Positions 1,436 to 62,265 of a stretch of DNA of 64,000 bases are shown piece after piece. Location of the stretch: contig JAVKHY010000004.1 of assembly GCA_031459765.1 (NCBI GenBank), positions 62,001-126,000 on the forward strand. Direction: 5' to 3'. Every line of letters begins with the position of its first letter. Positions within the stretch are counted from its first letter, which is position 1. The DNA is from Armatimonadota bacterium (lineage in GTDB: Bacteria > Sysuimicrobiota > Sysuimicrobiia > Sysuimicrobiales > Kaftiobacteriaceae). The notes beneath the pieces are model-generated. The model had not been told where the DNA came from and did not search any database. It was given only the letters and a program-made list of their open reading frames with translations. The position numbers and the translations under genes were made by a program.

Positions 1436-3391
1436 TCACGGGAGGTCCCGGATCGCCAGGCGCGTGCGCACTTCTCCGGTGCGGCCGTCTTCGTAGCGGA
1501 TGGTGAAGACGGCGTCGTAGTGGGGCGCGTCGGAGCACAGCGCGGCGACCAGGTCACGGTAGCGGTCCTGGATGAAGCTGCGGCGCAGCTTGCGGGTGCG
1601 GGTGAGCTCGTCGTCGTCGGGGTGGAACTCTTTGTACAGGGAGAGGAACCGCCGCAGGCGCCATTCCGGGCGGAGGCGGCTGTTCACTTCGGCCACGAGG
1701 CCCTGCAGCAGGTCCAGCACCTGGGGCTTCTGGGAGAGGTCGGCGTAAGAGGTGTAGGCGATGCCGCGATCTTCCGCCCACTTCCCCACGCTGCGCATCT
1801 CGATATTCAGGATCGCGGCCAGCGTGCGCCGATCGGGCCCCAGGACGACCATGGCTTCCTGGATGTAGGGGGTGAACTTCAGCATCGCCTCCACCACCCA
1901 GGGGCTGATGCGGGTGCCGTCGGCCAGGACTAAGACGTCGGACATCCGGTCGAACATGATCACGTCGCCGCTGGGGTCCAACGTGCCGTAGTCTCCGGAA
2001 TAGAGCCACCCGTCCCGGAGGGCCCGGGCCGTCGCCTCCGGGTTGCGGAAGTAGCCCTGGAAGAGGGCCGGGCTGCGGCTGACGATCTCCCCCTCCTCGG
2101 TCACCCGGACCTCGGTGTTCGCGATGGGCGAGCCCATGGTCCAGAAACGCACCGCCCCGTCGCGGTGGACGCAGGAGATGCCGGCCATCTCCGTCTGGCC
2201 GTAGATCTGCTTGAGGTTCACCCCCAGGGCGTGGAAGAACTTGAAGTAGTCCGGCCCCAGCGGGGAGCCCCCGTTCCAGGCCACGCGGAGGCGGGCGAAA
2301 CCGATCTTGTCCAGCAGCGGCCGATACACCAGCCAGCGGGCGAGACTCCGCTGGACCCGCAGCCACCACGACACCGGCTGCCCGTCGGCCCGGCGTTCCA
2401 CGATCCGGCCGCCCACGCCCAGCCCCCAGTCGTACACCTTCCGGCGCAGCCAGCCTGCATCCAGGATGCGGACGGTGACCGCGGTGTGCAGCCCTTCATA
2501 GATTCGCGCCGGGGCAAAGGTGAACCGCGGGGCGATCTCCCGGAAGTCGCGCTGCGCCGTCTCGGGCTCCTCGGGAAAGTTCACCGTGAACCCCACCAGC
2601 TGGTGGAGGGACACGGAGAGCATCTGCTCGCCGATCCAGGCGAAGGGCAGGTAGCTGACGAACTCGTCGTCGACGCCGATGTGCGACTCGACGGCGTGGA
2701 AGTTCAGCCCCTGACTGATCAGGTTGGCATGGGAGAGCATGGCCAGTTTCGGCAGCGCCGTGGTGCCCGAGGTCTGGCAGAAGATGGCGACATCCGTGGC
2801 CCGGCCCTGGTCGATCTCCTCGTCGAACCGCCGGGGGTCGGCCTGGTGGCGTTCCCTGCCACGGCGCAGGACCTCCTCGAATCGGAGCAGCATCGGGTGG
2901 CGGTAGCGCCACATCCCCCGCCAGTCGTCCACGATGATGAACTCGACGCGGCGCAGTCGGCCCAGCGCGTCGAGGACCTTGTCCGTCTGCTCCTGATCCT
3001 CGCAGAAGACGAACCGGGCCTCGGAGAAGTCAATGAGCTGGGCCAGCTGCTCCGACAGGCTGTCCTGATAGAGTCCGTAGGAGATCCCCCCCACGGACTG
3101 GGCGCCCAGCGCCGCGTAGTACAGCTCCGGACGGTTGTCGCCGACGATGGCCAGGACCTCGCCGCGGCGGAATCCCAGGGCCTGCAACCCCAGCCCGAAG
3201 TCGCGCGCCGCGTGGAAGTAGCGCCGCCAGGAGATGGGCTGCCAGATCCCCAGGTCCTTCTCCCGAAACGCCGTCCGATCGCCGAACCGCTCCGCGTTGT
3301 GCCGCAGGAGCTTGGGCAGCGTGTCCAGTGCCCGCGGGAGCCCGGATGGGCTCGGGACGCTTCGGGGGTGCTCGAGGAGGGCGCGGGCCAT
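1436..3391 (-). CDS. AMP-binding long-chain acyl-CoA synthetase inside the LIV operon
   Basis: ATP-dependent acyl-CoA ligase of the ANL superfamily, 651 aa, most like the long FadD/FAA-type (LC-FACS) enzymes. The phosphate loop is QTSGTTALPK at about residues 206-215, where the usual glycine-rich GxPKG is altered to ALPKL. Further motifs are IYGQTE and YSGDYGTLDPSGDVIMFDR, and the C-terminal lysine region is LTRTRKLRRSF. It lies 2 bp after livG and 30 bp before livH, so it is co-transcribed with the transporter. Known family role: activation of a carboxylic acid to its CoA thioester. Inference: the transporter may import a carboxylate (fatty, aromatic or branched-chain acid) that this enzyme then traps. 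Confidence 0.9.
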   Translation of the reverse strand: MARALLEHPRSVPSPSGLPRALDTLPKLLRHNAERFGDRTAFREKDLGIWQPISWRRYFHAARDFGLGLQALGFRRGEVLAIVGDNRPELYYAALGAQSVGGISYGLYQDSLSEQLAQLIDFSEARFVFCEDQEQTDKVLDALGRLRRVEFIIVDDWRGMWRYRHPMLLRFEEVLRRGRERHQADPRRFDEEIDQGRATDVAIFCQTSGTTALPKLAMLSHANLISQGLNFHAVESHIGVDDEFVSYLPFAWIGEQMLSVSLHQLVGFTVNFPEEPETAQRDFREIAPRFTFAPARIYEGLHTAVTVRILDAGWLRRKVYDWGLGVGGRIVERRADGQPVSWWLRVQRSLARWLVYRPLLDKIGFARLRVAWNGGSPLGPDYFKFFHALGVNLKQIYGQTEMAGISCVHRDGAVRFWTMGSPIANTEVRVTEEGEIVSRSPALFQGYFRNPEATARALRDGWLYSGDYGTLDPSGDVIMFDRMSDVLVLADGTRISPWVVEAMLKFTPYIQEAMVVLGPDRRTLAAILNIEMRSVGKWAEDRGIAYTSYADLSQKPQVLDLLQGLVAEVNSRLRPEWRLRRFLSLYKEFHPDDDELTRTRKLRRSFIQDRYRDLVAALCSDAPHYDAVFTIRYEDGRTGEVRTRLAIRDLP

Positions 3392-5561: not shown

Positions 5562-5706
5562 CAGAAGAGGAAGTGCGCCTAGGGTTCCACGGCTTCACAA
5601 GAGCCGGTCGGTCCAAGCGGCGCAGGCGGCCGGGCGCGGCCGCTACACCGTCAGGATAAAAGCCTGAGGGATAGGTTCCTCCAGAATCTATCGCTCAGGC
5701 TTGTTG
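5562..5706 (+). promoter_or_regulatory. ykkC-class riboswitch (subtype 2, ppGpp-type suspected) with intrinsic terminator
   Basis: The leader holds the ykkC family signature in order: CTAGGGTTCC (5579-5588), a GGCT/AGCC hairpin, GGTCCAAGCGG (5610-5620), a GCGGCC/GGCCGC hairpin (5626-5643), TACACCG, then the hallmark GGATAAAAGCC (5654-5664). A short hairpin TCAGG/CCTGA (5651-5655 with 5663-5667) shares bases with a long terminator stem AAGCCTGAG (5660-5668) : CTCAGGCTT (5694-5702), extended inside by GATAG/CTATC and followed by TTGTTGCT. Aptamer and terminator are therefore mutually exclusive, as in a ligand-ON switch. ykkC subtypes bind guanidine, ppGpp, PRPP or nucleoside diphosphates; ppGpp is favoured here only because ppGpp riboswitches are known to precede branched-chain amino acid genes. 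Confidence 0.8.
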
Positions 5707-5744: not shown

Positions 5745-5992
5745 CCGGGCGATGACGGGAAGCAGTAGACGCCGGCGGGCGCTTTCCAGAGAGCCGTGGG
5801 GGGTGGAATCCGGCAGCCGACGCCGCGTCGAACTCGTCCCTGAGCCGCGACGCCGACCCCTGACCGGCTAGGCGTCGCCGGCAGCCGCCGTTACCGGTGC
5901 GAGTGCCGGCGGCTCGGTCCTGAGGACCGGTCGCTGGAACTAAGGTGGTACCGCGGGAGCACCCGCCCTTAGGGTGTCTCCCGCGCTGTGTT
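5745..5992 (+). promoter_or_regulatory. T-box leader of the ilv-leu operon, leucine (CUC) specifier
   Basis: Stem I begins near 5745 and shows AGAGAGCCG (5788-5796) and the distal loop sequence GGTGGAATCCGG. The specifier context GAA-CTC-G places codon CUC (Leu) at 5833-5835. The T-box AAGGTGGTACCGCGGG is at 5942-5957. Antiterminator pairing CTAAGG (5940-5945) with CCTTAG (5967-5972) competes with a terminator stem GCGGGAG (5953-5959) : CTCCCGC (5978-5984), followed by a T-rich stretch. Uncharged tRNA-Leu would stabilise the antiterminator and allow read-through into ilvB. B. subtilis ilv-leu uses the same specifier codon. Confidence 0.93.
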
Positions 5993-6025
5993 TCTTGCGG
6001 CCTACAGGGCCGGGAGGAGAGTGTC

Positions 6026-7747
6026 ATGGCCCGTCAGATCGAGGCAGCACCGGGCAGGCGTGCCCTCCGCGCCAGGACGATGACCGGTGCGCAGATCCTG
6101 GTGGAGGCGCTGCGGCGGGAAGGGGTGGAGATCATCTTTGGCCATCCCGGCGGGGCCTCTTTGCCGATCTACGACGCCCTGTACGATGCGAAGGACATCC
6201 GCCACATCCTCGTCCGCCACGAACAGGTGGCCGCGCACGCCGCCGTGGGCTACGCCCGCGCCTCCGGCCGGGTCGGGGTCTGCACCGCGACCTCGGGGCC
6301 CGGCGCCACGAACCTGGTGACGGGCATCACGGACGCCATGATGGACTCCATTCCGATCGTGGCCATCACCGGTCAGGTGCCCCGGCCCGTCATCGGCAAC
6401 GACGCCTTCCAGGAAGCGGATGTTACCGGCGTGACGATGCCGATTACGAAGTGGAACCACCTGGTCCTGGAGGTGGGCGATGTGGCGCCCTCCGTGCAGC
6501 GCGCCTTCTACCTGGCCCGAACGGGGCGGCCGGGCCCGGTACTGGTGGACCTCCCGCGCGACGTCCTGCAGGAGAGCGCCGTCCCGGCCTTCCTCGACGG
6601 CATCCCGGTTCCCGGATACCGTCCGGTCCTCGACGGCAACCCCAGGCAGATCGCCGCGGCGGCGGAGCTGCTGGCGACCGCGACGCGGCCGGTGATCTAT
6701 GCCGGCGGAGGGGTGATCAGCGCCGGAGCCAGCGCCGAGCTGACGGCGCTGGCCGAGCGCACGGGCATTCCCGTCACCCTCACCCTGATGGGCAAGGGGG
6801 CGATGGACGAGACCCACCCTCTGTGCCTGGGGATGCTCGGCATGCACGGGAGCGTCTACGCCAACTACGCGGTGCACGAGGCCGACGTCATCCTCGCCGT
6901 CGGCGTGCGCTTCGACGACCGCGTGACGGGCAGGCTGCGGGATTTCGCCCCCCGGGCCCGGTTCATCCACATCGACATCGACCCGGCGGAGATCGGCAAG
7001 AACAAGCCGGCGCACATCCCCATCGTGGGAGACGCCTCCCGGGTTCTGGCCGCCCTGGCCTCTCAGGTCCGCGCCCCCCAGATCGACGGCTGGTGGGCAC
7101 AGATCAACACCTGGCGGCGGCGCTACCCGTTCCGGTACCGGCAGGGCGAGGCCACCGTCAGCGCCCAGTACGTCTGCGACCAGCTGAACCGGATCACCGG
7201 CGGCGAGGCCGTCGTCACCACCGATGTGGGACAGCACCAGATGTGGATGGCGCAGTGGTACCGGCCGCGCGGGCCGCGCCGCTTCATCTCCTCGGGTGGG
7301 CTCGGCGTGATGGGGTTCGGGTTCCCGGCGGCCCTGGGGGCGAAGTTCGCCTGCCCGGAGAGCCTTGTGGTGGCGGTGGTGGGGGACGGCGGCTTTCAGA
7401 TGACGATGCAGGATCTCAGCACCGCCGTCGAGTACCGAATGGCTCTGCCGATCATCGTCCTGAACAACGGCGCCCTGGGGATGGTGCGCCAGTGGCAGAC
7501 CTTCTTCTACCGCGACCGGCGGTCGGCGTCCATCCTGCGCAACCCCGACTTCGCCCGCGTGGCCGAGGCCTTCGGCGCCCGCGGGATCCGCGTGGAGCGG
7601 CCGGAGCAGGTCGAACCCGCGCTGCGCAGCGCTTTGGCCGTCGAGGACGGGCCGGTGGTGGTGGACATCCGGTGCGATCCCGAGGAGAACTGCCTGCCCA
7701 TGATCCCTTCGGGCCAGTCCGTGGCCGAGATGATCATCGATGAGTGA
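6026..7747 (+). CDS. ilvB: Acetolactate synthase, large (catalytic) subunit
   Basis: ThDP-, FAD- and Mg-dependent enzyme condensing two pyruvates, or pyruvate with 2-oxobutyrate; first common step of Ile/Val/Leu synthesis; 573 aa. The ATG at 6026 was chosen because it follows GGGAGGAG by 7 nt; an upstream in-frame start would lie inside the T-box terminator. Motifs: catalytic glutamate in VRHEQVAAHAAVGYARASG, the FAD-region VGVRFDDRVTGRL, and the ThDP-binding VGDGGFQMTMQDL...NNGALGMVRQWQ near the C-terminus. First gene of the operon; its end overlaps ilvN by 8 bp, which suggests translational coupling of the two subunits. Confidence 0.97.
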   Translation: MARQIEAAPGRRALRARTMTGAQILVEALRREGVEIIFGHPGGASLPIYDALYDAKDIRHILVRHEQVAAHAAVGYARASGRVGVCTATSGPGATNLVTGITDAMMDSIPIVAITGQVPRPVIGNDAFQEADVTGVTMPITKWNHLVLEVGDVAPSVQRAFYLARTGRPGPVLVDLPRDVLQESAVPAFLDGIPVPGYRPVLDGNPRQIAAAAELLATATRPVIYAGGGVISAGASAELTALAERTGIPVTLTLMGKGAMDETHPLCLGMLGMHGSVYANYAVHEADVILAVGVRFDDRVTGRLRDFAPRARFIHIDIDPAEIGKNKPAHIPIVGDASRVLAALASQVRAPQIDGWWAQINTWRRRYPFRYRQGEATVSAQYVCDQLNRITGGEAVVTTDVGQHQMWMAQWYRPRGPRRFISSGGLGVMGFGFPAALGAKFACPESLVVAVVGDGGFQMTMQDLSTAVEYRMALPIIVLNNGALGMVRQWQTFFYRDRRSASILRNPDFARVAEAFGARGIRVERPEQVEPALRSALAVEDGPVVVDIRCDPEENCLPMIPSGQSVAEMIIDE

Positions 7748-30400: not shown

Positions 30401-30416
30401 TGGCACAGGAGTTGCT
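30401..30416 (+). promoter_or_regulatory. Candidate sigma-54 promoter upstream of the c-di-GMP riboswitch
   Basis: TGGCAC (30401-30406), AGGAG and TTGCT (30412-30416) match the -24/-12 element TGGCAC-N5-TTGCW exactly. Transcription would begin near 30428, about 110 nt before the aptamer. No rpoN or enhancer-binding activator gene is in the window, so this is a sequence match only. Confidence 0.5.
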
Positions 30417-30478
30417 ACCAATCTTCCACAGAACCCCTTCCCGGTTTTCCCCGCCGGGAGGAGGATTCCGCCGGGACG

Positions 30479-30529
30479 CCGTCGAAAAGGCGAAACGTCA
30501 GGGCATAATTTCATAGCAGTTTTCGACGG
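30479..30529. other. 10-bp inverted repeat in the sigma factor leader
   Basis: CCGTCGAAAA (30479-30488) and TTTTCGACGG (30520-30529) are perfect complements around a 31-nt loop containing GGGCATAATTTC. This could be an RNA hairpin ahead of the aptamer or an operator. The left arm continues into AAAAGGCGAAAC, which resembles the start of the aptamer (AAAAGGCAAACC). Confidence 0.5.
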
Positions 30530-30537
30530 GTCCTCGC

Positions 30538-30614
30538 GAAAAGGCAAACCCAGGGCAACCTGGGGGCGCAAAGCTACGGGGCCTTCCCGTAAGGAAGGCC
30601 AGCCGGGCTGCCGA
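30538..30614 (+). promoter_or_regulatory. Class I c-di-GMP riboswitch (GEMM-I)
   Basis: All conserved GEMM-I blocks are present in order: AAGGCAAACC (30541-30550), the P2 hairpin CCCAGG-GCAA-CCTGGG (30549-30564) with a GNRA tetraloop, GGCGCAAAGCTACGGG (30565-30580), the P3 hairpin GGCCTTCC (30580-30587) : GGAAGGCC (30593-30600), then AGCCGGGCTGCCG (30601-30613). P1 forms between GGCA and TGCC. It lies 60 nt upstream of a sigma factor start codon on the same strand. Confidence 0.95.
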
Positions 30615-30616
30615 AC

Positions 30617-30664
30617 GGGGCGCGTGTATTTTCGCCCTCCTTCAGCAGCCCACGAAGGGGGGCG
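30617..30664 (+). promoter_or_regulatory. Riboswitch expression platform sequestering the sigma factor ribosome site
   Basis: CGCCCTCCTTC (30633-30643) pairs over 11 bp with GAAGGGGGGCG (30654-30664), which contains the purine-rich ribosome site 10 nt before the ATG at 30673. GGGCG (30618-30622), directly after the aptamer, can instead pair with CGCCC (30633-30637) and free the site. No strong U-tract follows, so translational rather than transcriptional control is favoured. Which state ligand binding favours cannot be decided from sequence. Confidence 0.7.
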
Positions 30665-30672
30665 TTGTCATT

Positions 30673-31467
30673 ATGGCGCGCAGTCGCGCCGCCGTCCGCA
30701 ACGGGGGAGGTGCAGTGGGGCCGGCGGAGTCGCCCGAGGCGCTGTTCCGGGCCTACCGCTCCACGCGGGATCGAGAGATCCATGCGCGCCTGACCTGCCT
30801 GTACATGCCGCTGGTGCACCAGGTGGCCCGCCGCTACAGCCGGTCGGGGGTGCCGCTGGAGGACCTGCACCAGATCGGCTACATCGGGCTGATGAACGCC
30901 GTCGCCCATTTCGACCCCGACCGCAGCGTCAAGTTTGAAACCTATGCCCGACACCTGATCGCGGGGGAGATCCGGCACTATCTCCGCGACCAGGGGACCA
31001 CGGTGCGGCGGCCGCGCTGGCTGTACGAGATGGACCACCGGGTGAGCCGGGCGATCACCGAGCTCACCCAGCGCAAGGGCCGCACCCCCACCGTCGCCGA
31101 GATCGCCGGGGAGGTGCAGCTGGCGGAAGACGAGGTGCAGCAGGTGCTGCACGCCCGAGAGTCCCTGCGCTTCCTCTCCCTGGACGAGGAGCGGGAGGGG
31201 GACGACGGCGCACCCATCGCCCAGCGCGACCGCATCGCCGCCCGGCAGCTTCCGGCGGGTATAGGTGAAGAGGAACAGGTGTTGATTGCGGACGCCATCC
31301 AGCGCCTCTCGGAGCTGCAGCGAAAGGTGATCTACTACCTGTTCTACATGGATCTGACGCAGACCGAGGCGGCGAGGGAACTGGGCATCTCCCAGAAACA
31401 CGTCTCCCGGGTCATGCATGCCGCCCTGCGGCGGCTGCGGGAGACGATGCGGCCGGAGACGGCCTAG
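30673..31467 (+). CDS. SigB/SigF-type alternative sigma factor
   Basis: 264-aa sigma-70 family protein of group 3. Region 2: YMPLVHQVARRYSRSGVPLEDLHQIGYIGLMNAVAHFDPDR, then FETYARHLIAGEIRHYLRD, as in the SigB/SigF/SigG subfamily. Region 3: AITELTQRKGRTPTVAEIAGEVQL. Region 4: LSELQRKVIYYLFYMDLTQTEAARELGISQKHVSRVMHAALRRLRE with its helix-turn-helix. No region 1.1 is present. No anti-sigma or anti-anti-sigma gene is adjacent; control instead appears to lie in the preceding c-di-GMP riboswitch. It heads the MerR-Roadblock-pilB-pilT-pilC gene series. Confidence 0.93.
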   Translation: MARSRAAVRNGGGAVGPAESPEALFRAYRSTRDREIHARLTCLYMPLVHQVARRYSRSGVPLEDLHQIGYIGLMNAVAHFDPDRSVKFETYARHLIAGEIRHYLRDQGTTVRRPRWLYEMDHRVSRAITELTQRKGRTPTVAEIAGEVQLAEDEVQQVLHARESLRFLSLDEEREGDDGAPIAQRDRIAARQLPAGIGEEEQVLIADAIQRLSELQRKVIYYLFYMDLTQTEAARELGISQKHVSRVMHAALRRLRETMRPETA

Positions 31468-31485: not shown

Positions 31486-31767
31486 GTGAAGACGATGGAG
31501 GCTACGGCGGGGCAGGATCTGCCCATCTACCCGATCCGCACCGCGGCGCGCCTGACCGGCGTGGACGCCCGACGCATCCGGGCCTGGGAGAGTCAGTACG
31601 GGCTCCTGCACCCGGCCCGGACCCGCGGCGGGCACCGGCTCTTCAGCCAGCGCGACCTGGAGCTGATCCGACGGATCAAACGCCTGATCGACGAGGAGGG
31701 GCTGCGCCTGCAGGGCGTGCGTCTGCTGCTCGAGGCGGAATCGGTCGACACCGGGGGGGCGGCCTGA
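31486..31767 (+). CDS. MerR-family HTH regulator, DNA-binding domain only
   Basis: 93-aa protein with a MerR winged helix-turn-helix: IYPIRTAARLTGVDARRIRAWESQYGLLHPARTRGGHRLFSQRDLELIRRIKRLI. There is no C-terminal effector domain or cysteine sensor, so it resembles the short HspR/GlnR-like type. RAWESQYGLLHPARTRGG is close to the MerR domains found in B12/light or pili-related regulators. Start GTG 31486 follows AAGGAGG; its stop overlaps the next gene start (ATGA-type). Confidence 0.9.
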   Translation: MKTMEATAGQDLPIYPIRTAARLTGVDARRIRAWESQYGLLHPARTRGGHRLFSQRDLELIRRIKRLIDEEGLRLQGVRLLLEAESVDTGGAA

Positions 31768-32144
31768 TGGCCGGGAACGTGAAGGATCTGCTGCGCGGCC
31801 TCGTCGGAGGCATCGAGGGAGTGGTGGGCGCGGCCGTGGTGGGTATGGACGGCGCGCCCATTGAGACCATGCGCGTGGAGCAGGAGTTCTCCGTGGAGGA
31901 GATCGCCCAGGAAGGGGCGATGGCCAGCAAAGTGCTGGACTACCTGTGCCAGAAAGTCGATGCCGGCGCCATCGACCACATCATGCTGGTCGCCGAGCGC
32001 TACGTCGTCCTCCTGGCGATGGCCGGTCAGGACTACTACGTCGGGATCGTCGTCCAGCCCAGGGGGAACGTGGGCAAGGCCAGGCTGCAGCTGCGGCGGT
32101 TCATGCCGGAGATCGCCTCGGTGCTGAACGCCGGTGTGATCTGA
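31767..32144 (+). CDS. Roadblock/LC7 domain protein 1
   Basis: 125-aa single-domain Roadblock/LC7 protein (MglB-like fold): DLLRGLVGGIEGVVGAAVVGMDGAPIET, then ASKVLDYLCQKVDAGAIDHIMLVAERYVVLLAMAGQDYYVGIVVQPRGNVGKARLQL. In Myxococcus and Thermus, Roadblock proteins pair with Ras-like GTPases (MglA) to control pilus polarity. No MglA-type GTPase is in this window. Its position between a MerR gene and pilB suggests a pilus-control role (inference). Confidence 0.88.
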   Translation: MAGNVKDLLRGLVGGIEGVVGAAVVGMDGAPIETMRVEQEFSVEEIAQEGAMASKVLDYLCQKVDAGAIDHIMLVAERYVVLLAMAGQDYYVGIVVQPRGNVGKARLQLRRFMPEIASVLNAGVI

Positions 32145-32175
32145 GCACGAATGTGAATTGACGATTGGGAAAGGG

Positions 32176-32562
32176 ATGAGCGTCATGCAGACGATGGACA
32201 CGGCGACCGCAGGCGGACTCCGAGGCATCCTGGAAGGGCTGCTCCGCATCGACGGCGTGACCGCGGCCCTGGTGGTGGGACGGGACGGCTTCGTCATCGA
32301 GGCGGTGAGCAGCGATGCGATCGAGACCGACTCTGTGGGCGCCATCGCCGCCAGCTCCCTGGCTACCTCCGAGGCGATGGGCGGGGAGCTTCACCTCGGG
32401 CCGCTGGGGTCGATCCTGATCGAGTTCGAGCAGGGGCCGGTGGCGGTCTCCCCGGCTGGCCCGGAGGCGGTGCTGGCCGTGGTGGGCAACCAGCACGTCA
32501 ACCTGGGCCGCCTGCGCATCGAGATGCGGAAGATCCGCACCGCGGTGGCCAACCAGCTGTAG
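32176..32562 (+). CDS. Roadblock/LC7 domain protein 2
   Basis: Second Roadblock/LC7 protein, about 128 aa. GLRGILEGLLRIDGVTAALVVGRDGFVIEAVSSDAIETDSVGAIAASSLATSEAMGGEL and LGPLGSILIEFEQGPVAVSPAGPEAVLAVVGNQHVNLGRLRIEMRKI follow the MglB pattern. ATG 32176 or, with better ribosome-site spacing, ATG 32185 is the start. The two Roadblock proteins are clearly diverged from each other, so a heterodimer or different partners are possible. Confidence 0.88.
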   Translation: MSVMQTMDTATAGGLRGILEGLLRIDGVTAALVVGRDGFVIEAVSSDAIETDSVGAIAASSLATSEAMGGELHLGPLGSILIEFEQGPVAVSPAGPEAVLAVVGNQHVNLGRLRIEMRKIRTAVANQL

Positions 32563-32573
32563 AGGACCCGGGC

Positions 32574-35090
32574 GTGATCGAGCTGGCGGAGTACAAACAG
32601 CGACTGCGGGTCCCCCTCCAGGACACCACGCTCGACCGCGCCCTGGCCTTCTACCAGGCCAGGACACTGGAGCGGCGGGGACAGTTCGACGAGGCCATCG
32701 CCGCGTACAAGAAGGTTCTGGAATACGGCCCGCAGGACGGGGTGGCCTACGCCCGCCTGGCCTCCCTCTACGTGCAGCGGGGGCTGCCCCGGGCCGCGGT
32801 CATGGTCTACGTGGCCCTGGCCGAGATGCACATCAGCCGCGACCGCTGGGAGAAGGCCGCCGCCGCCTACGAGAAGGCCACAGAGCTCGACCCCGACGAC
32901 TCGGACGTCCACAGCGCGCTGCGCGACGTCTACATCCGGCTGGGCTGGCTCAAAGAGGCGGCGAAGGTCCAGGCCCGGCTGGACCGCATCCTGACCGAGA
33001 CCCCGAAGGGGGCCGTGGCCGAGCCCCTGGCACCTCCGCCGCCCGCGGCGAAGCCGTCTGTGCCGAAGCCCGACGGCGTGAAGCCCGATGCTGCAAAGCC
33101 CGATGGAGCCGTCGCAGACGGCGCCGCTCCCCGGGTCAAGCCCGACGGGGCGGCCCCGGCGGGCGCACCCGCAGCACCGGGCCAGTCCGCTCCGCCGGCG
33201 TCGGAACGGGCGCAGCCGGCAGGGCCGCCCGCCGCGCCGCCCGAGGCAACGCGATCCCCCCGCCGGGGACAGGAACCTCCCGCGCCCGCCAAGGACCGCC
33301 CGAAGGCGAAGGAGGCCGCTCCCGCCTCTCCGGCGCCCGCCCCCCCGGCGCCTGCTCCGGCCGCCCCCGGCACCAAACGGGGGATGCGGGCCCGCACCGA
33401 ATCCCTGGGCCAGATCCTCCTGGACCAGGGCATGGTCTCGCGCGAGCAGTTGGAGAAGGCCATCCAGATGCATCAGCGCTCCGGCGGACACCTGGGACGG
33501 ATCCTGGTCGAACTGGGTGCGGTCACAGAACAGCAGCTGGCGCAGGCCCTGGCCGTGCAGTGGGGACTGACCTGGGTGGACCTGAACACGGTCGAGATCG
33601 ACCCCGACGTGGTGAAGACCATCCCCCAGCACCTGGCCCAGCGCCACAAGGTCCTGGCCATCGAAAAGAGCCGCAAACGCCTCAAGATGGCCATCGCCGA
33701 CCCGTTGAACGTCCTGGCCGTGGACGACGTGCGGTTGGTGACCGGACTGGAGATCGAGCCGGTGGTGGCCGCCGAGGCCGACATCGTCGCCGCCATCAGC
33801 CGCCACTACAGCAGCACCGTGGATTTGGACGAGGCGATGCGCGCCGCCGTGGGCAGCGAGCTGGAGGTGGCGGAAGAACGCACCGAGGAACTCAGCGTCG
33901 AGAAGCTGCGCACGCTGACCGAGGAAGCGCCGGTCGTCCGCCTGGTGAACCTGATCATCGGCCAGGCCATCGCCGACGGCGCCAGCGACATCCACATTGA
34001 GCCCCACCGCCGCACCCTGAACGTCCGGTACCGCATCGACGGCGTCCTGCACGACGTGATGACCCCGCCCAAGGCGGTGCAGCACGCCATGGTCTCCCGC
34101 ATCAAGATCATGGCCAACATGGACATCGCCGAGCGCCGCATCCCCCAGGACAACCGGATCCACGTGGTGATCGAAGGCCGAGAGTACGACCTGCGCGTCT
34201 CCACCCTGCCCACCGTCTTCGGGGAGAAGGTGGTGATGCGCATCCTGGACCAGTCCAGCACGCGCCTGGGGCTGGGGAAGCTGGGGTTCACGGCCGCAGC
34301 CCTGGAGACGTGGGAGCAGCTGGTGAGCAAACCCTACGGGATGGTGCTGGTCACCGGGCCCACCGGCAGCGGGAAGACAACGACGCTGTATTCCACCCTG
34401 AACAAGATCAACACCACGGACAAGAACATCATCACCATCGAGGATCCCGTGGAGTACCAGCTGGCCCGGGTGAACCAGGTACAGGTGAACGTCAAAGCCG
34501 GCCTGACCTTCGCCAACGGGCTGCGCTCCTTCCTGCGCCAGGACCCCGACATCATCATGGTGGGCGAAATCCGCGACCGGGAGACGGCGGAGATCGCCAT
34601 CCAGGCCTCGCTCACCGGGCACCTGGTGCTGTCCACGGTGCACACCAACGACGCGCCCAGCGCCACGACCCGGCTGATCGACATGGGCATCGAGCCCTTC
34701 CTGATCAGCTCCTCGCTGATCGGCGTGCTGGCCCAGCGCCTGGCCCGGACCATCTGCTCCCACTGCAAGGAGTCCTACGTCCCCCCCGTGGAGGCGCTGC
34801 ACCGCCTGGGGCTGCAGCCCGAGGAAGGCGAGGAGATCGTCTTCTACCGGGGTCGGGGGTGCGACCGGTGCAAGGGCTCGGGGTACAAGGGACGGATCGG
34901 CATCTTCGAGCTGATGGTAATGTCCGACACCCTCCGCGACCTGATCCTCAAGGGGGCCTCCGCGGCGGAGATCCGCGAGGCGGCCATCGCCGAAGGGATG
35001 AAGACCTTGCGCGAGGATGGTATCCTCAAGGTACTCGAGGGTATGACGACCGTGGACGAGCTGCTCCGCGTCGTCTTCGTCGAGACATGA
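32574..35090 (+). CDS. pilB: TPR-PilB fusion: type IV pilus extension ATPase with N-terminal TPR and MshEN domains
   Basis: 838-aa assembly ATPase. Residues about 20-140 are TPR-like repeats (RRGQFDEAIAAYKKVLEYGP, DRWEKAAAAYEKATELDP). Residues about 145-270 are a Pro/Ala/Lys-rich linker. An MshEN-like module follows (SLGQILLDQGMVSREQLEKA and HLGRILVELGAVTEQQLAQA), the fold that binds c-di-GMP in MshE; the usual Arg of RLG is Ser and His here. The GspE/PilB ATPase core has Walker A GPTGSGKTTT, Asp box region, Walker B DIIMVGEIRD, His box GHLVLSTVHTND, and zinc cysteines CSHC...CDRC. A TPR fusion to PilB is unusual. Confidence 0.93.
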   Translation: MIELAEYKQRLRVPLQDTTLDRALAFYQARTLERRGQFDEAIAAYKKVLEYGPQDGVAYARLASLYVQRGLPRAAVMVYVALAEMHISRDRWEKAAAAYEKATELDPDDSDVHSALRDVYIRLGWLKEAAKVQARLDRILTETPKGAVAEPLAPPPPAAKPSVPKPDGVKPDAAKPDGAVADGAAPRVKPDGAAPAGAPAAPGQSAPPASERAQPAGPPAAPPEATRSPRRGQEPPAPAKDRPKAKEAAPASPAPAPPAPAPAAPGTKRGMRARTESLGQILLDQGMVSREQLEKAIQMHQRSGGHLGRILVELGAVTEQQLAQALAVQWGLTWVDLNTVEIDPDVVKTIPQHLAQRHKVLAIEKSRKRLKMAIADPLNVLAVDDVRLVTGLEIEPVVAAEADIVAAISRHYSSTVDLDEAMRAAVGSELEVAEERTEELSVEKLRTLTEEAPVVRLVNLIIGQAIADGASDIHIEPHRRTLNVRYRIDGVLHDVMTPPKAVQHAMVSRIKIMANMDIAERRIPQDNRIHVVIEGREYDLRVSTLPTVFGEKVVMRILDQSSTRLGLGKLGFTAAALETWEQLVSKPYGMVLVTGPTGSGKTTTLYSTLNKINTTDKNIITIEDPVEYQLARVNQVQVNVKAGLTFANGLRSFLRQDPDIIMVGEIRDRETAEIAIQASLTGHLVLSTVHTNDAPSATTRLIDMGIEPFLISSSLIGVLAQRLARTICSHCKESYVPPVEALHRLGLQPEEGEEIVFYRGRGCDRCKGSGYKGRIGIFELMVMSDTLRDLILKGASAAEIREAAIAEGMKTLREDGILKVLEGMTTVDELLRVVFVET
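33065..33109 (+). repeat. Three 15-bp units in the TPR-PilB linker codons
   Basis: Units of GAAGCCCGACGGCGT type start at 33065, 33080 and 33095, with a diverged copy near 33138. They encode KPDGV-KPDAA-KPDGA in the disordered linker between TPR and MshEN domains. Confidence 0.9.
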
Positions 35091-35106
35091 GGAGCGTCCG
35101 ACCGGC

Positions 35107-36846
35107 ATGGCCGAGACCGGGAATCCCCGCCGGCCCGCTCTGGACGGGCCGGGGCGACGGCGTCCCCTGGGGGAGATCCTCCTCTCCGACGGCCTGATCA
35201 CTCCCGACCAGCTGGCCCGCGCCCTGGAGATCCACCGCGCCAGCGGGCAGCGGCTGGGCCGCATCCTGCTGGAGATGGGGCTGGTGGACCCCGAGCACAT
35301 CGCCAGCGGGCTGTCCCGGCAGCTCGGGGCGGAGTTCCTGCGCTTGACCCAGATCCCGCTGCGCGAGGAGGTCCTGCGCCTGGTGCCGGCCGCCGTGGCC
35401 GGCCGCCTCCAGGCCATTCCCGTGGCCCGCGACGGCGCATCTTTGACCGTGGCCATGGTCGATCCCCTGGACGTCGTCGCCCTGGACGACATCCGCCGGA
35501 TGACGGGGCTGGACGTCCGCGTCGCCGTCACCACCCTGGCCGACTTCCAGTACGCCCTGAACCAGTACCCGCCCCTGGATGCCGAGAGCGAGCTGCTCAT
35601 GGACCTGCCGCGGCGCGAGACAGCGGTCGAGGAGGTCTCTCCGGAGGCGCTGCGGCGGGCGGCGGAGGAGCAGCCGATCATCCGCCTGGTCAACCGGATC
35701 ATTGAGGAGGCCGTCCGCCGGCGGGCCAGCGACATCCACATCGAACCCCAGGAGAAGGGGATCCGGGTCCGCTACCGCATCGACGGCGTGCTCAAAGTCC
35801 AGCACACTCTCCCCGAGCACATCCACCCCCAGGTCGTCTCGCGCATCAAGATCATGGGGACGATGGACATCGCCGAGCGGCGGCTCCCCCAGGACGGCAG
35901 TTTCCAGACCCGCGTGGACGGCCGGGCCATCGACGTGCGGGTTTCCACCGTCCCCTCCTTCTACGGGGAGAAGGCGGTGCTGCGGCTGCTGGACAAGGCC
36001 GCGCCGATCTACGACCTGGACAAGCTGGGGCTGTCCACGCGGAACATCACGCGGCTGCGCCAGATCATCCGCCGCCCCCAGGGCATCTTCCTCCTCACCG
36101 GGCCCACGGGCAGCGGGAAGACGACGACCCTGTACGCCATCCTGCGGGAACTGAACAGCGAGGCGGTCAACATCCTGACCATCGAGGACCCCGTGGAGTA
36201 CCAGATTCCGGGCGTGACCCAGGTGCAGGTGAACGTTCGGGCCGGGGTGACCTTCGCCTCGGCGCTGCGCCACTTCCTGCGTCAGGACCCGGACATCATC
36301 ATGGTGGGCGAAATCCGGGATCACGAGACGGCGCGCATCGCCGTCCAGGCCGCCCTCACCGGACACCTGGTGCTGAGCACCCTGCACACCAACGACGCGC
36401 CGGGGGCGGTGACGCGCCTGTTGGACATGGGCATCGAACCCTACTTGGTCGCCTCCGCCCTGGAAGGGGTGGCCGCCCAGCGCCTGGTGCGGGTCCTGTG
36501 TCCCCGCTGCCGGGTCCCCGATCCCTACAGCGGCGACGACCTCCGGGCGCGGTTCGGCCTGGCCCTCCCCGAGGGGGAGTACCTCCTGGCCAGGGGCTGC
36601 GAGTACTGCAACTACACCGGCTACCGGGGGCGGGTGGCCATCTTCGAGATCGCCCAGATGGACGACGACCTGCGCCAGCTGGTCATCAACCGGGCCCCGC
36701 ACCACGCCATCAAGGACACCGCGGTGCAGGCCGGGATGGTCACGCTCCTGGACGACGGGCTGGAGAAGGCGGCGCGGGGGATCACCTCGCTGGCCGAGGT
36801 CCTGCGCGTCGTGCAGATCGAACGCGTCGAGGGCAACGGCGACTGA
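35107..36846 (+). CDS. pilB: Second PilB/GspE-type pilus extension ATPase
   Basis: 579 aa, the standard PilB size. The N-terminal MshEN module is better preserved than in the upstream paralogue: PLGEILLSDGLITPDQLARALEIH and QRLGRILLEMGLVDPEHIASGLSRQ, the second half keeping the RLG arginine. ATPase core: Walker A GPTGSGKTTT, Walker B DIIMVGEIRDHE, His box GHLVLSTLHTND, zinc cysteines CPRC...CEYC. It starts 16 bp after the TPR-PilB gene, so both are co-expressed and may form mixed or alternative motors. Confidence 0.95.
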   Translation: MAETGNPRRPALDGPGRRRPLGEILLSDGLITPDQLARALEIHRASGQRLGRILLEMGLVDPEHIASGLSRQLGAEFLRLTQIPLREEVLRLVPAAVAGRLQAIPVARDGASLTVAMVDPLDVVALDDIRRMTGLDVRVAVTTLADFQYALNQYPPLDAESELLMDLPRRETAVEEVSPEALRRAAEEQPIIRLVNRIIEEAVRRRASDIHIEPQEKGIRVRYRIDGVLKVQHTLPEHIHPQVVSRIKIMGTMDIAERRLPQDGSFQTRVDGRAIDVRVSTVPSFYGEKAVLRLLDKAAPIYDLDKLGLSTRNITRLRQIIRRPQGIFLLTGPTGSGKTTTLYAILRELNSEAVNILTIEDPVEYQIPGVTQVQVNVRAGVTFASALRHFLRQDPDIIMVGEIRDHETARIAVQAALTGHLVLSTLHTNDAPGAVTRLLDMGIEPYLVASALEGVAAQRLVRVLCPRCRVPDPYSGDDLRARFGLALPEGEYLLARGCEYCNYTGYRGRVAIFEIAQMDDDLRQLVINRAPHHAIKDTAVQAGMVTLLDDGLEKAARGITSLAEVLRVVQIERVEGNGD

Positions 36847-36953: not shown

Positions 36954-38117
36954 ATGCACATCGATGACCTGCTGCGCGAAGCCGTCGACGCCAAAGCGAG
37001 CGACCTGCACCTCACCGTCGGCATCCCGCCGACGATCCGGGTCTGGGGCAAGCTGCAGCCGCTGAACTACCCGGTACTGACGCCCGAGGACACCTTCCAG
37101 CTCGGGTACAGCATGCTCAACACCTTCCAGAAGCAGCGCTTCGAGAAGAACTGGGAGCTGGACCTCTCCTACTCGGTGTCCGGGCTGGGCCGCTTCCGCG
37201 TCAACCTGTACCGCCAGCGCGGCTCGGTGGGTGTGGCCGCCCGCGTCATCCCGGACAAGGTCCCGCCCTTCGAAGCCCTGAACCTGCCTCCGGTGCTGAA
37301 GGACCTCTGCCGCCTGCCCCGCGGGCTGATCCTGGTCACGGGGCCCACCGGCCACGGCAAGTCCACGACGCTGGCGGCGATGATCGACTTCATCAACAAC
37401 GAGCGGTCGGCGCACATCGTGACCATCGAAGACCCCATCGAGTACGTGCACGCCCACCGCAAGAGCATCATCAACCAGCGCGAGCTGGGGCAGGACACCC
37501 AGAGCTTCCCCAACGCCCTGCGCGCCGTGCTGCGCGAGGACCCCAACATCATCATGATCGGCGAGATGCGCGACCTGGAGACGATCAGCGCCGCGCTGAC
37601 CATCGCCGAGACCGGCCACCTGGTCTTCGCCACCCTGCACACGGCCAACGCCGCCCAGAGCATCGACCGCATCATCGACGTCTTCCCCCCGCACCAGCAG
37701 CAGCAGATCCGGGTGCAGCTGGCCGCGGTCCTGGAAGCGGTGCTCTCCCAGCAGCTGCTGCCGAACCTCCAGTTCACCCGGCAGGCCGAGACCCGCCGGC
37801 CGGTGGCCGCCGCGGTGCGCAGCGGCGGGGGGGAGACCATCGCCTCGGGCTCGGCGTTCCCGTCACTGGGGGAGGTGGGGCGGGTGCCGGCGATCGAGAT
37901 CATGATCGCCACGCCGGCCATCCGCAACCTGATCCGCGAGGCCAAGACCCACCAGATTCACACGGCGATCCAGACCGGCGCCCAGTACGCGATGCAGACC
38001 ATGGACCAGGCACTGTACAACCTGTACTCCCGGCGTCTGATCACCCTGGAGAACGCGCTGGCGCGGGCGATCTATCCGGACGAGCTGCGCAAGCTCATCG
38101 AGCGGGGAGGCCAGTAG
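36954..38117 (+). CDS. pilT: PilT retraction ATPase
   Basis: 387-aa pilus retraction motor. Motifs: ASDLHLTVGIPPTIRV, Walker A GPTGHGKST (His in place of the usual Ser), Asp box TIEDPIEYVH, Walker B NIIMIGEMRDLET, His box GHLVFATLHTANAAQSIDRI, and the PilT-specific AIRNLIRE motif preserved as ATPAIRNLIREAKTHQI. An insertion of roughly 35 residues (RQAETRRPVAAAVRSGGGET...) lies before the EIMIATPAIR segment and makes the protein longer than typical PilT (about 345-370 aa). Confidence 0.95.
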   Translation: MHIDDLLREAVDAKASDLHLTVGIPPTIRVWGKLQPLNYPVLTPEDTFQLGYSMLNTFQKQRFEKNWELDLSYSVSGLGRFRVNLYRQRGSVGVAARVIPDKVPPFEALNLPPVLKDLCRLPRGLILVTGPTGHGKSTTLAAMIDFINNERSAHIVTIEDPIEYVHAHRKSIINQRELGQDTQSFPNALRAVLREDPNIIMIGEMRDLETISAALTIAETGHLVFATLHTANAAQSIDRIIDVFPPHQQQQIRVQLAAVLEAVLSQQLLPNLQFTRQAETRRPVAAAVRSGGGETIASGSAFPSLGEVGRVPAIEIMIATPAIRNLIREAKTHQIHTAIQTGAQYAMQTMDQALYNLYSRRLITLENALARAIYPDELRKLIERGGQ

Positions 38118-38160: not shown

Positions 38161-39372
38161 ATGGCCACGTTCAGATACAGCGCGCGTGACGCCTCGGGCC
38201 GCGTGGTGGCCGGGGCCATCGAGGCCGAGACCGAGGTCATGGTCGTCGGCAAGCTGCGCGACATGGGGTTCTACGTCACCAGCCTCTCCCGGGAGGCGCC
38301 CAAGATTGACGTTCGGGAGGGGCTGCGGCGCCTGCGCAAGGTCAGCCTGCGGGAGCTGACGGTCTTCACCCGACAGTTCGCCACGATGGTGAACGCCGGG
38401 CTGTCCATGGTGCGCACGCTGTCCATCCTGGAGGAGCAGTCCGAGTCCAGCAAGCTGAAGAAGCTCATCGGCGAGGTGCGCAGCGACGTGGAGCAGGGCA
38501 TGACGCTGTCCGACGCCTTCGGCAAGCACCCCCAGACCTTCAGCTCGCTGATGGTGAACATGGTGCGGGCCGGCGAGGTGGGCGGTGTGTTGGACGAGGT
38601 CCTCAACCGCATCGCCGGTTTCTACGAGAAGGACATGGCCCTGCGGCAGAAGGTGCGGGCCGCCGTGACCTATCCCGTGGCCATCTTCATCTTCTCCATC
38701 GGCATCATCATGTTCCTGGTGTTCTTCATCCTGCCCCAGTTCATCGGTTTCTTCGAGGGGCTGGACCTGACGCTGCCCTGGCCGACGCGCATCCTGATCC
38801 TCTTCACCCGCACCATGACCACCTACTGGTACATCATCTTCGGTTTCCTGGTCCTTCTGCTCTACGGCCTGCGCCTCTACATCCGCACCCCGCCCGGCCG
38901 CATGAACTTCGACCGGTTCAAGCTGCGCATCCCCATCTTCGGGCCGCTGGTGCGCAAGGTGACCATCTCCCGCTTCTCGCGCACCCTGGGCACGCTGATC
39001 AGCAGCGGCGTCCCCATCATGCAGGCCCTAGAGGTGGTGGCCAAGGCCGTGGACAACACCATCGTCAGCCAGGCCATCGACAACGTGCGGGCCAGCATCC
39101 GCGAAGGGGAGAGCGTGGCCCTGCCCCTGCAGGCCAGCGGGCTGTTCCCGCCCATGGTGGTGCAGATGACGGCGGTGGGCGAGGAGACCGGCCAGCTGGA
39201 CTCCATGCTGACCAAGGTGGCGGACTTCTACGACGGGGAAGTGGAGACCACGCTGTCCCAGCTGACCTCGATCATCGAACCGCTGCTGATCCTCTTCCTG
39301 GGCTTCGTCGTGGGCTTCATCGTCCTGGCCTTCTACATGCCCCTGTACCAGATCATCACGGGGATCAAGTAA
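38161..39372 (+). CDS. pilC: PilC inner-membrane platform protein
   Basis: 403-aa polytopic platform protein on which the pilus motors act. Two GspF domains: first FTRQFATMVNAGLSMVRTLSILEEQ with LSDAFGKHPQTFSSLMVNMVRAGEVGGVLDEVL, second ISRFSRTLGTLISSGVPIMQALEVVAKAVDN with QMTAVGEETGQLDSMLTKVADFYDGEV. Three main membrane segments (about 173-200, 222-240, 375-400). ATG preceded by GAGGTGAGGCG. Last gene of the motor operon; terminator follows. Confidence 0.96.
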   Translation: MATFRYSARDASGRVVAGAIEAETEVMVVGKLRDMGFYVTSLSREAPKIDVREGLRRLRKVSLRELTVFTRQFATMVNAGLSMVRTLSILEEQSESSKLKKLIGEVRSDVEQGMTLSDAFGKHPQTFSSLMVNMVRAGEVGGVLDEVLNRIAGFYEKDMALRQKVRAAVTYPVAIFIFSIGIIMFLVFFILPQFIGFFEGLDLTLPWPTRILILFTRTMTTYWYIIFGFLVLLLYGLRLYIRTPPGRMNFDRFKLRIPIFGPLVRKVTISRFSRTLGTLISSGVPIMQALEVVAKAVDNTIVSQAIDNVRASIREGESVALPLQASGLFPPMVVQMTAVGEETGQLDSMLTKVADFYDGEVETTLSQLTSIIEPLLILFLGFVVGFIVLAFYMPLYQIITGIK

Positions 39373-60759: not shown

Positions 60760-62265
60760 ATGCGTGTCCGGACGGACCTGGAGACCGGTGCGGTGCTCAT
60801 CGGCGTCCTGATGGCCTCGATCCTGGTCGTCGTCCTGGCCCTCTCCGCCCTGACGGTGGCCGCCGGCGAGGTGCTGATGGCGGGCCTCCAGCGGGATGGG
60901 GTCCGGGCCCTGGAGCAGGCCCAGGCCGGGGTGGAGGAGGCCCTGCGACGAATGGAACGAGGTTACCCGTTCGTCCAGGGCTTTTCGGGGTCCCTCTCGA
61001 ACAGTACGTCGGTTTCGGTCGCGCGCCTCGTCACGGGGGCCGGTGCGGCGTACCAGGAGATCCGGGTACGCGCCGATGCCGGCCGCGCCGCGCGCCGGGT
61101 GCACGCGATCGTGCTGCAGCGGAGTACCGCGGTGCTGCCGGACACCGTGGTGGCCGGCAGCATCCTGGTGGACGAGAACGGGCGGCTCGGCTGCGGCGAT
61201 ATCTATGCGCACACCTACATCCGGCAGAACCGTCCCCCCATGACCGGATGTGACGGGGCGGACCTCACTTCGGCCTTCCTGTACGCCGGCTGGCGGATCG
61301 ACGACGGATTCGTCGCCTGCACCAGCCACGCCGACTGCGTCCGGCAGGGGCGGCCCACCTGGTATCCGGGCCAGCGCCGCGGCGTGTGGGCGGCCAGCCC
61401 TTTGGGCCGGGAGATCATCGCCCAGACCCTGCGGTGCCTGCCGGGAGAAGGCGGCCTCCCGGGGGAGATCGTCTCCGGAACCCTCGCCGACGGGACGGCG
61501 TATGAGGGCCCGGCGTTCGGCTTCGACACGGATGATCCCGACGGCGCGGGATCCGTCCCGCCACAGGCCGTGCGCGAGGGGCTGCCCTGCGGTCTGCCCT
61601 ACAAGATCGTCCCGGAGACGTTCCTCGACGACCGGGGCAACGTCGTCACCCGGCTGTTCAAGACGATCGTCTACGAGCAGTGGCTGGACACCTACTGGCG
61701 GTTCGATCCGGACACCCTGAGCACGGTCAAGCGCCGCGGGGGAGCGTGCTCACCGGAGCAGGGGCCGTGCCTGCCCGGGGAAGGCGAGCCGGATCTGGCG
61801 AACCATCCGCAGTTCGGTGCCGTGCCGCCGGTCCCGGAGGTCGCCTCGCTGACGGCGAATGTCGATCGGCGCCTGCGGGGCGGGGGCAGGATCGCCGGCG
61901 GAGACTTCGGCTGCCTGCATCCCCCGATGCGGGGAGATGCCCACTGTCTCGGCGTCCCCGCGGATGCGTCGCGCCCGCTGGCCGTGTCGCTCGAAGAGGG
62001 CTCCTACGTGCTGGACGGCACCCTGCGCGGCCACGGGACGCTGGTCGCCAGCGCGCCCCTGCAGCTGACCGGCGATGTGGTGTACTGGGGCGCAGTCGTC
62101 GCTTCCCGGGGCATAACTCTGGAGGGGCGCGCGGCCCTGTGGGGGGCCGTGGCCACGGACGGTCTCCTGCAGGTCCGGGGAGCCGCCGCCCTGGCCGCCT
62201 CCAGCGTGCCCAATGTCCCGCTGGGGCCGGCCGTCGTCGTCATCAGGAGCTGGTGGGAGCGCTAA
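60760..62265 (+). CDS. PilX-like minor pilin with large exposed domain
   Basis: 501 aa. ETGAVLIGVLMASILVVVLALSALTVAAGEV is a prepilin-type hydrophobic segment lacking Glu+5, followed by the alpha helix VRALEQAQAGVEEALRRMERG, the PilX/GspK pattern. The large remainder has several cysteines and ends in repeated short beta-like segments (LVASAPLQLTGDVVYWGAVVASRGITLEGRAALWGAV) reminiscent of a polymeric beta domain. Counterpart of the 727-aa protein at 26801. Confidence 0.78.
   Translation: MRVRTDLETGAVLIGVLMASILVVVLALSALTVAAGEVLMAGLQRDGVRALEQAQAGVEEALRRMERGYPFVQGFSGSLSNSTSVSVARLVTGAGAAYQEIRVRADAGRAARRVHAIVLQRSTAVLPDTVVAGSILVDENGRLGCGDIYAHTYIRQNRPPMTGCDGADLTSAFLYAGWRIDDGFVACTSHADCVRQGRPTWYPGQRRGVWAASPLGREIIAQTLRCLPGEGGLPGEIVSGTLADGTAYEGPAFGFDTDDPDGAGSVPPQAVREGLPCGLPYKIVPETFLDDRGNVVTRLFKTIVYEQWLDTYWRFDPDTLSTVKRRGGACSPEQGPCLPGEGEPDLANHPQFGAVPPVPEVASLTANVDRRLRGGGRIAGGDFGCLHPPMRGDAHCLGVPADASRPLAVSLEEGSYVLDGTLRGHGTLVASAPLQLTGDVVYWGAVVASRGITLEGRAALWGAVATDGLLQVRGAAALAASSVPNVPLGPAVVVIRSWWER

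Follow-up and report, generated by a model that had tools for sequence, protein, structure and literature searches.

The window, a stretch of 64,000 nucleotides from an Armatimonadota bacterium (positions 62,001 to 126,000 of the forward strand of contig JAVKHY010000004.1), carries a c-di-GMP-I (GEMM-I) aptamer at 30534-30616 in the 5′ leader of a sigma factor gene at 30673-31467. All genes, RNA elements and the promoter-like site described here lie on the + strand. The sigma gene is followed by genes for a MerR-family regulator (31486-31767; PF13411, 69.7 bits), which also adjoins the sigma gene in families f1, f4 and f7 of the same order, for a conserved small protein with no family match of its own (31767-32144) and for a Roadblock/LC7 (MglB-like) protein conserved together with the sigma factor (32158-32562; PF03259, 57.8 bits). 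Next come two PilB ATPases (PilB 1, 32574-35090, TIGR02538, 686 bits; PilB 2, 35107-36846, TIGR02533, 607.7 bits), the PilT retraction ATPase (36954-38117; TIGR01420, 485 bits) and the PilC/GspF platform protein (38161-39372; NF052607 425 bits, GspF 408 bits). The gene order sigma-merR-small gene-Roadblock-pilB-pilB-pilT-pilC, closely spaced on one strand, and the family matches both agree with the preliminary description of this DNA, which had placed the sigma gene at the head of a pilus motor operon. Both consecutive pilB genes (32574-36846) encode a motif of the MshE type, predicted to bind c-di-GMP, at residues 278-329 of PilB 1 and 20-72 of PilB 2 (64.6 and 65.3 bits, respectively, with model NF053729, cut-off 38). 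PilB 1 also has an N-terminal TPR-like extension.

We found that two Rfam covariance models recognise the aptamer above their cut-offs: RF01051 with 72.4 bits (cut-off 35) and, by cmscan, RF03167 with 65.6 bits (cut-off 59, E 2.9e-13). The limits read earlier from the letters alone, 30538-30614, were right within 4 nt, and all conserved blocks of the class are intact, as had been claimed; P2 is capped by a GCAA tetraloop. The cmscan alignment places the contact residues, which we take together with their numbering from the Vc2 structure, at 30543 (G20), 30570 (A47) and 30611 (C92). Relatives of this class that sense cGAMP (GEMM-Ib) have A at position 20; the window has G. The best Rfam E-value, however, belongs to RF03167, the model of the ‘GGC’ variant, which might point to a variant aptamer with another ligand, such as 3′,3′-cGAMP or an unassigned ligand of the variant. 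Although the gathering cut-off of RF03167 is passed, position 47 is A and not the variant's G47 (consensus CGCGAAGC, window CGCAAAGC), and A47 recurs in those aptamers of relatives that were inspected. We therefore dropped the variant ligand suggested by the label and filed the aptamer under canonical c-di-GMP-I; with G20, A47 and the RF01051 score against it, another ligand is very unlikely. The role of G20 in c-di-GMP-I aptamers has been described (PMC9262584), and the canonical G20/A47/C92 set makes c-di-GMP the expected ligand. Judged by its sequence, the element is an ordinary c-di-GMP-I aptamer in an unusual, conserved place.

The host genome contains one further c-di-GMP-I riboswitch and 10 GGDEF matches. 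Upstream of the aptamer, CGAAAAGGCGAA (30483-30494) copies its first conserved block (30537-30548) at 11 of 12 positions, and is possibly the relic of a tandem aptamer. Elsewhere in the window, Rfam matches a Guanidine-I (ykkC) element at 5568-5672 (66.1 bits, cut-off 63) ahead of a 600-aa acetolactate-synthase-like ORF (5945-7747) and a small-subunit-like ORF. When ykkC relatives precede genes for branched-chain amino acids, they usually belong to the ppGpp-sensing subtype 2a, so the Guanidine-I label may be wrong.

The first start codon 3′ of the aptamer, ATG 30673, lies 56 nt on and is indeed that of the sigma gene, as the preliminary description had said with a distance of 60 nt. An in-frame GTG at 30715 with a good ribosome-binding site is a possible alternative start, but we prefer ATG 30673, because relatives keep it and the N-terminus M-A/G-R-x. 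The 264-aa product has sigma-70 regions 2, 3 and 4 (PF04542, PF04539 and PF04545) without region 1.1, and is thus a group-3 sigma factor. Its earlier assignment to the SigB/SigF type stands in part: TIGR02980 (SigB/F/G) is the best of all NCBIfam models, with 212 bits against 128 for the FliA/WhiG models, but at 212.3 bits it stays under the curated, trusted-subfamily cut-off of 234.35, so that ‘SigB/F/G-like’ is a fair label.

Transcription of the leader may start from a promoter-like site at 30482-30509 (TCGAAA-16-CATAAT; 9 of 12 consensus matches in the scan, mean of 0.1 in shuffles). Its −35 element is weak, and clearer housekeeping-type promoters occupy the corresponding place in several relatives (TTGCAA-17-TAGAAT in f1, TTGACA-17-TTAACT in f7). 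The preliminary description had raised the possibility of a promoter that bypasses the leader; scanning of the window and 24 leaders revealed no promoter-like site between aptamer and sigma gene, the only one being 5′ of the aptamer. The −10-like element is flanked by a perfect 10-nt inverted repeat (CCGTCGAAAA, 30479-30488, and TTTTCGACGG, 30520-30529), imperfect versions of which seem present in two other leaders (L034 and L041). A regulator such as the MerR protein might use the repeat as its operator.

Between aptamer and start codon the leader can form alternative hairpins that, from sequence comparison and folding, are kept in relatives. The aptamer itself is closed by an extended P1 stem (30532-30620), in which CCUCGCG (30532-30538) pairs with CG (30612-30613) and CGGGG (30616-30620). 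This stem is supported by the sequence, by a forced fold and by partner changes among relatives (CCUCG/CGAGG, CCUCG/CGGGG, CCCA/UGGG); the switching strand is the one on its 3′ side. In the putative ligand-free (ON) hairpin (30605-30651), the 3′ strand of the aptamer, GGGCUGCCGAACGGGG, forms one arm (30605-30622) and 30633-30651 the other, making up an inverted repeat (I1; 16 nt, 81%). The same hairpin was found in f1 and f5 relatives. Since MAFFT shifts the ribosome-binding-site columns, pairs were counted on hand-read elements, a procedure that leans towards structure; 14 leaders treated in this way had 136 of 154 cells paired, versus 17-53% in shifted registers. Duplex formation was significant (p ≤ 0.01) in 10 of 16 leaders and weaker in the single leaders L033, L034, L038, L041 and L042 (p 0.06-0.32). 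Changes in the ON hairpin are mostly one-sided, through G-U pairs, with one two-sided change from G-C to A-U (in L062); strong covariation is not expected here, since the need to form the aptamer limits change in one of the two strands.

The second, putative ligand-bound (OFF) hairpin (30633-30664) pairs CGCCCUCCUUC (30633-30643) with GAAGGGGGGCG (30654-30664) and is followed by UUGUCAUU. All 11 of its 11 pairs form in the window, and its partners change in relatives with pairing kept (CGCCC/GGGCG, GGCCC/GGGCC, CAUCC/GGAUG). It encloses the ribosome-binding site AAGGGGGG (30655-30662), 10 nt 5′ of ATG 30673, which has a pairing probability of 1.0 in the bound-like fold. The ON and OFF hairpins are mutually exclusive, and the ON hairpin also excludes the bound aptamer. 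The window leader had a computed energy of −86.9 kcal/mol when folded freely (ON) and of −78.7 kcal/mol in the bound-like fold, the contribution of the ligand being left out. The OFF hairpin is predicted to cover the ribosome-binding site and may cause transcription termination too; the weak U-run in UUGUCAUU counts against termination, and a consensus scan with strict criteria returned no terminator at the OFF hairpin. When the leader is folded freely to minimum energy, part of the ribosome-binding site still pairs with the 5′ strand of P1, which counts against release in the ON state. Together with the weak promoter, this imperfect release might suggest a relic aptamer without function in the host genome. 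We consider this extremely unlikely, given that the conserved blocks are intact and that both alternative hairpins are intact while their partners have changed relative to those of relatives.

Other families appear to have built the switch differently. Leaders of f5 end in terminator-like hairpins with U-runs. The f7 leaders have a different antiterminator, in which CCACGGGA of the aptamer pairs with UCCCGUGG ahead of an intrinsic terminator; the 5′ arm of that terminator, UCCCGUG(G), is complementary to CCACGGGA. A hairpin of f7 that would use the 3′ strand of the aptamer was also sought, and the tests gave nothing; the 5′ strand of P3 is used instead. Thus, an aptamer strand (3′ in f1 and f5, 5′ P3 in f7) forms the anti-terminator or anti-sequestor, so that the bound state would be OFF, and we read all platforms as OFF switches, whether they end in a terminator or in a hairpin that masks the ribosome-binding site. 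The layout is that of Cd1, where the ligand-bound state is likewise OFF (PMC9262584). Type IV pili, on the other hand, are often favoured by c-di-GMP, examples being the pilin riboswitch of C. difficile (PMC6366702) and motors of the MshE type, and this would fit an ON switch that promotes sigma expression. With the aptamer strands doubling as anti-terminator or anti-sequestor in three families, as in Cd1, this polarity is improbable.

Our preferred reading, in which we have good though not full confidence, is that the leader is a c-di-GMP-I OFF riboswitch acting on a type-IV-pilus-linked sigma factor. At low c-di-GMP, GGGCUGCCGAACGGGG would pair with the pyrimidine-rich downstream strand CCCUCCUUCAGCAGCCC, blocking the second hairpin, and the sigma factor would be expressed. 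At high c-di-GMP, the ligand would lock the 3′ strand of the aptamer in P1/P3; the freed CCCUCC strand would then pair with the GGGGGG ribosome-binding site, possibly terminating transcription, and the sigma factor would not be made. The sigma factor, in turn, is proposed to drive transcription of pilus and related genes. Since both PilBs carry the c-di-GMP motif, c-di-GMP would act on sigma synthesis and, a second time, on the motors themselves. No sigma-specific promoter motif was found: the SigB-type pattern GTTT-N12-18-GGGWA had 2 matches in the window versus 1.06 expected, none of them before pilus operons, and the scan thus gives no support for a regulon.

We then surveyed the pair in 43 genomes of the order, covering 22 genera. 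These relatives are Armatimonadetes and ‘ANGP1’ metagenome-assembled genomes of an uncultured lineage, which presumably correspond to CSP1-3. CSP1-3 has been named Sysuimicrobiota (PMC11604079), and this is probably the lineage of the relatives. Riboswitches of the c-di-GMP-I class occur in 43 of 43 genomes; they number 1-13 per genome, about 224 in total, and are also seen before prepilin-like and exported-protein ORFs. Orthologues of the sigma factor (E ≤ 1e-50) are present in 38 of the 43 and form one supported clade (97/94) in the tree. In 28 of these 38 genomes a same-strand c-di-GMP-I aptamer lies 97-310 nt upstream of the sigma gene (24 from cmscan of 30 sigma loci, and G017, G034, G038 and G040 by coordinates), an outcome that the preliminary description had said would support its reading. 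The paired genomes belong to families f1 (10), f4 (1), f5 (10) and f7 (7). With about 5 such riboswitches per genome of about 2.8 Mb, random placement upstream would be expected at only about 3e-4 per sigma gene. Three more genomes (G027, G030 and G037) have the aptamer 1-2 genes upstream, and in G014 the sigma locus is cut by a contig end. In f3, however, no riboswitch was found near the sigma gene in 6 of 6 genomes, which counts against our preferred reading. In the neighbourhoods checked, pil, Roadblock or prepilin genes accompany the sigma gene.

Two variations were noted. One pilus cluster (L081, on G012:C114) has two c-di-GMP-I aptamers (3230-3325 and 6708-6803), one before pilT-pilT and the other before the sigma gene. 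Genus g18 (L052/G033, L053/G035 and L055/G024) has the pilus-linked sigma gene twice, in tandem around merR, with the riboswitch directly before the first copy only.

The survey also bears on whether the riboswitch targets the whole pilus motor operon, with the sigma gene merely its first cistron. The close spacing of the genes from sigma to pilC on one strand would allow this, the terminator platforms of f5 and f7 would silence all downstream genes, and in G027 and G030 the genes between riboswitch and sigma are two pilT genes, giving the order pilT-pilT-sigma. Yet the f1 OFF hairpin lies over the sigma gene's own ribosome-binding site, and the riboswitch directly precedes the sigma gene in 28 genomes despite differing next genes. 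Moreover, in f5 the riboswitch and sigma gene lead a Roadblock/prepilin operon rather than pilB/T/C, so that the sigma gene is the one shared. An operon-wide target is, therefore, a serious but rather unlikely alternative to the sigma factor as the target.

The preliminary description had reported no anti-sigma gene nearby, and tblastn with RsbW of the order accordingly detected no RsbW-like gene in the window or in 20 neighbourhoods of the sigma clade. SigB paralogues linked to RsbW do exist in the order (L109-L112; tblastn found RsbW beside L109, L110 and L112), but in the tree they fall outside the riboswitch-linked sigma clade, whose loci lack the adjoining RsbW of a SigB-RsbW partner switch. 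The separate clade and the missing neighbour are consistent with the further suggestion that the riboswitch could take the place of protein-based sigma control. Some of the RsbW-like ATPase domains elsewhere in the genomes (13 HATPase_c_2 matches in the host) could, however, act in trans.

Known systems share parts of this arrangement. In SigB-RsbW the sigma factor is of the same subfamily as that of the window, but the riboswitch-linked clade is separate and has no RsbW near. The rpoH (sigma-32) mRNA carries an RNA thermometer, a structured leader that also controls sigma synthesis but senses temperature rather than a metabolite. In the C. difficile pilA1 operon, as in the window, type IV pilus genes have a c-di-GMP riboswitch, but one of the c-di-GMP-II class, acting as an ON switch on a pilin (PMC6366702). 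An RNA precedent is C. difficile sigD, inside the Cd1-controlled flgB operon (PMC6366702, PMC11477304): there, too, a c-di-GMP-I OFF aptamer lowers an alternative sigma factor and hence its regulon. This tempers the earlier claim that a sigma factor is an unusual direct target. SigD is of the SigD/FliA type and encoded within a 29-gene flagellar operon, whereas the sigma gene of the window is SigB/F/G-like, tied to pili, and conserved as the first gene. The literature searched, mostly without subscription journals, yielded no c-di-GMP riboswitch whose first target is a sigma gene. Riboswitches are mostly known for single operons; with a sigma factor as conserved first target, an RNA that senses a metabolite would govern an entire regulon. 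The locus also opens a way to study how pili are controlled in an uncultured lineage, and its RNA part is testable in vitro and in a laboratory host without culturing the organism.

A functional parallel is a protein switch. In Rubrobacter, RsiG and c-di-GMP hold WhiG inactive and so control type IV pili, and RsiG-WhiG has been described as the sole sigma-anti-sigma complex known to be a target of c-di-GMP (PMC8325347). Both there and in Streptomyces c-di-GMP keeps a sigma factor off, as proposed for the window; in RsiG-WhiG a protein anti-sigma factor binds c-di-GMP and the sigma factor, whereas the sensor predicted here is an RNA, which would control the synthesis of the sigma factor. We tentatively suggest, at somewhat short of even confidence, a lineage-wide design in which the sigma factor is controlled mainly by a dedicated c-di-GMP riboswitch rather than by an anti-sigma protein, with the platform rebuilt in at least three ways across families while the wiring was kept. 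It would be an independent RNA counterpart of RsiG-WhiG and, since input, sign and output would match those in Rubrobacter, would allow a test of whether RNA and protein have converged on one wiring.
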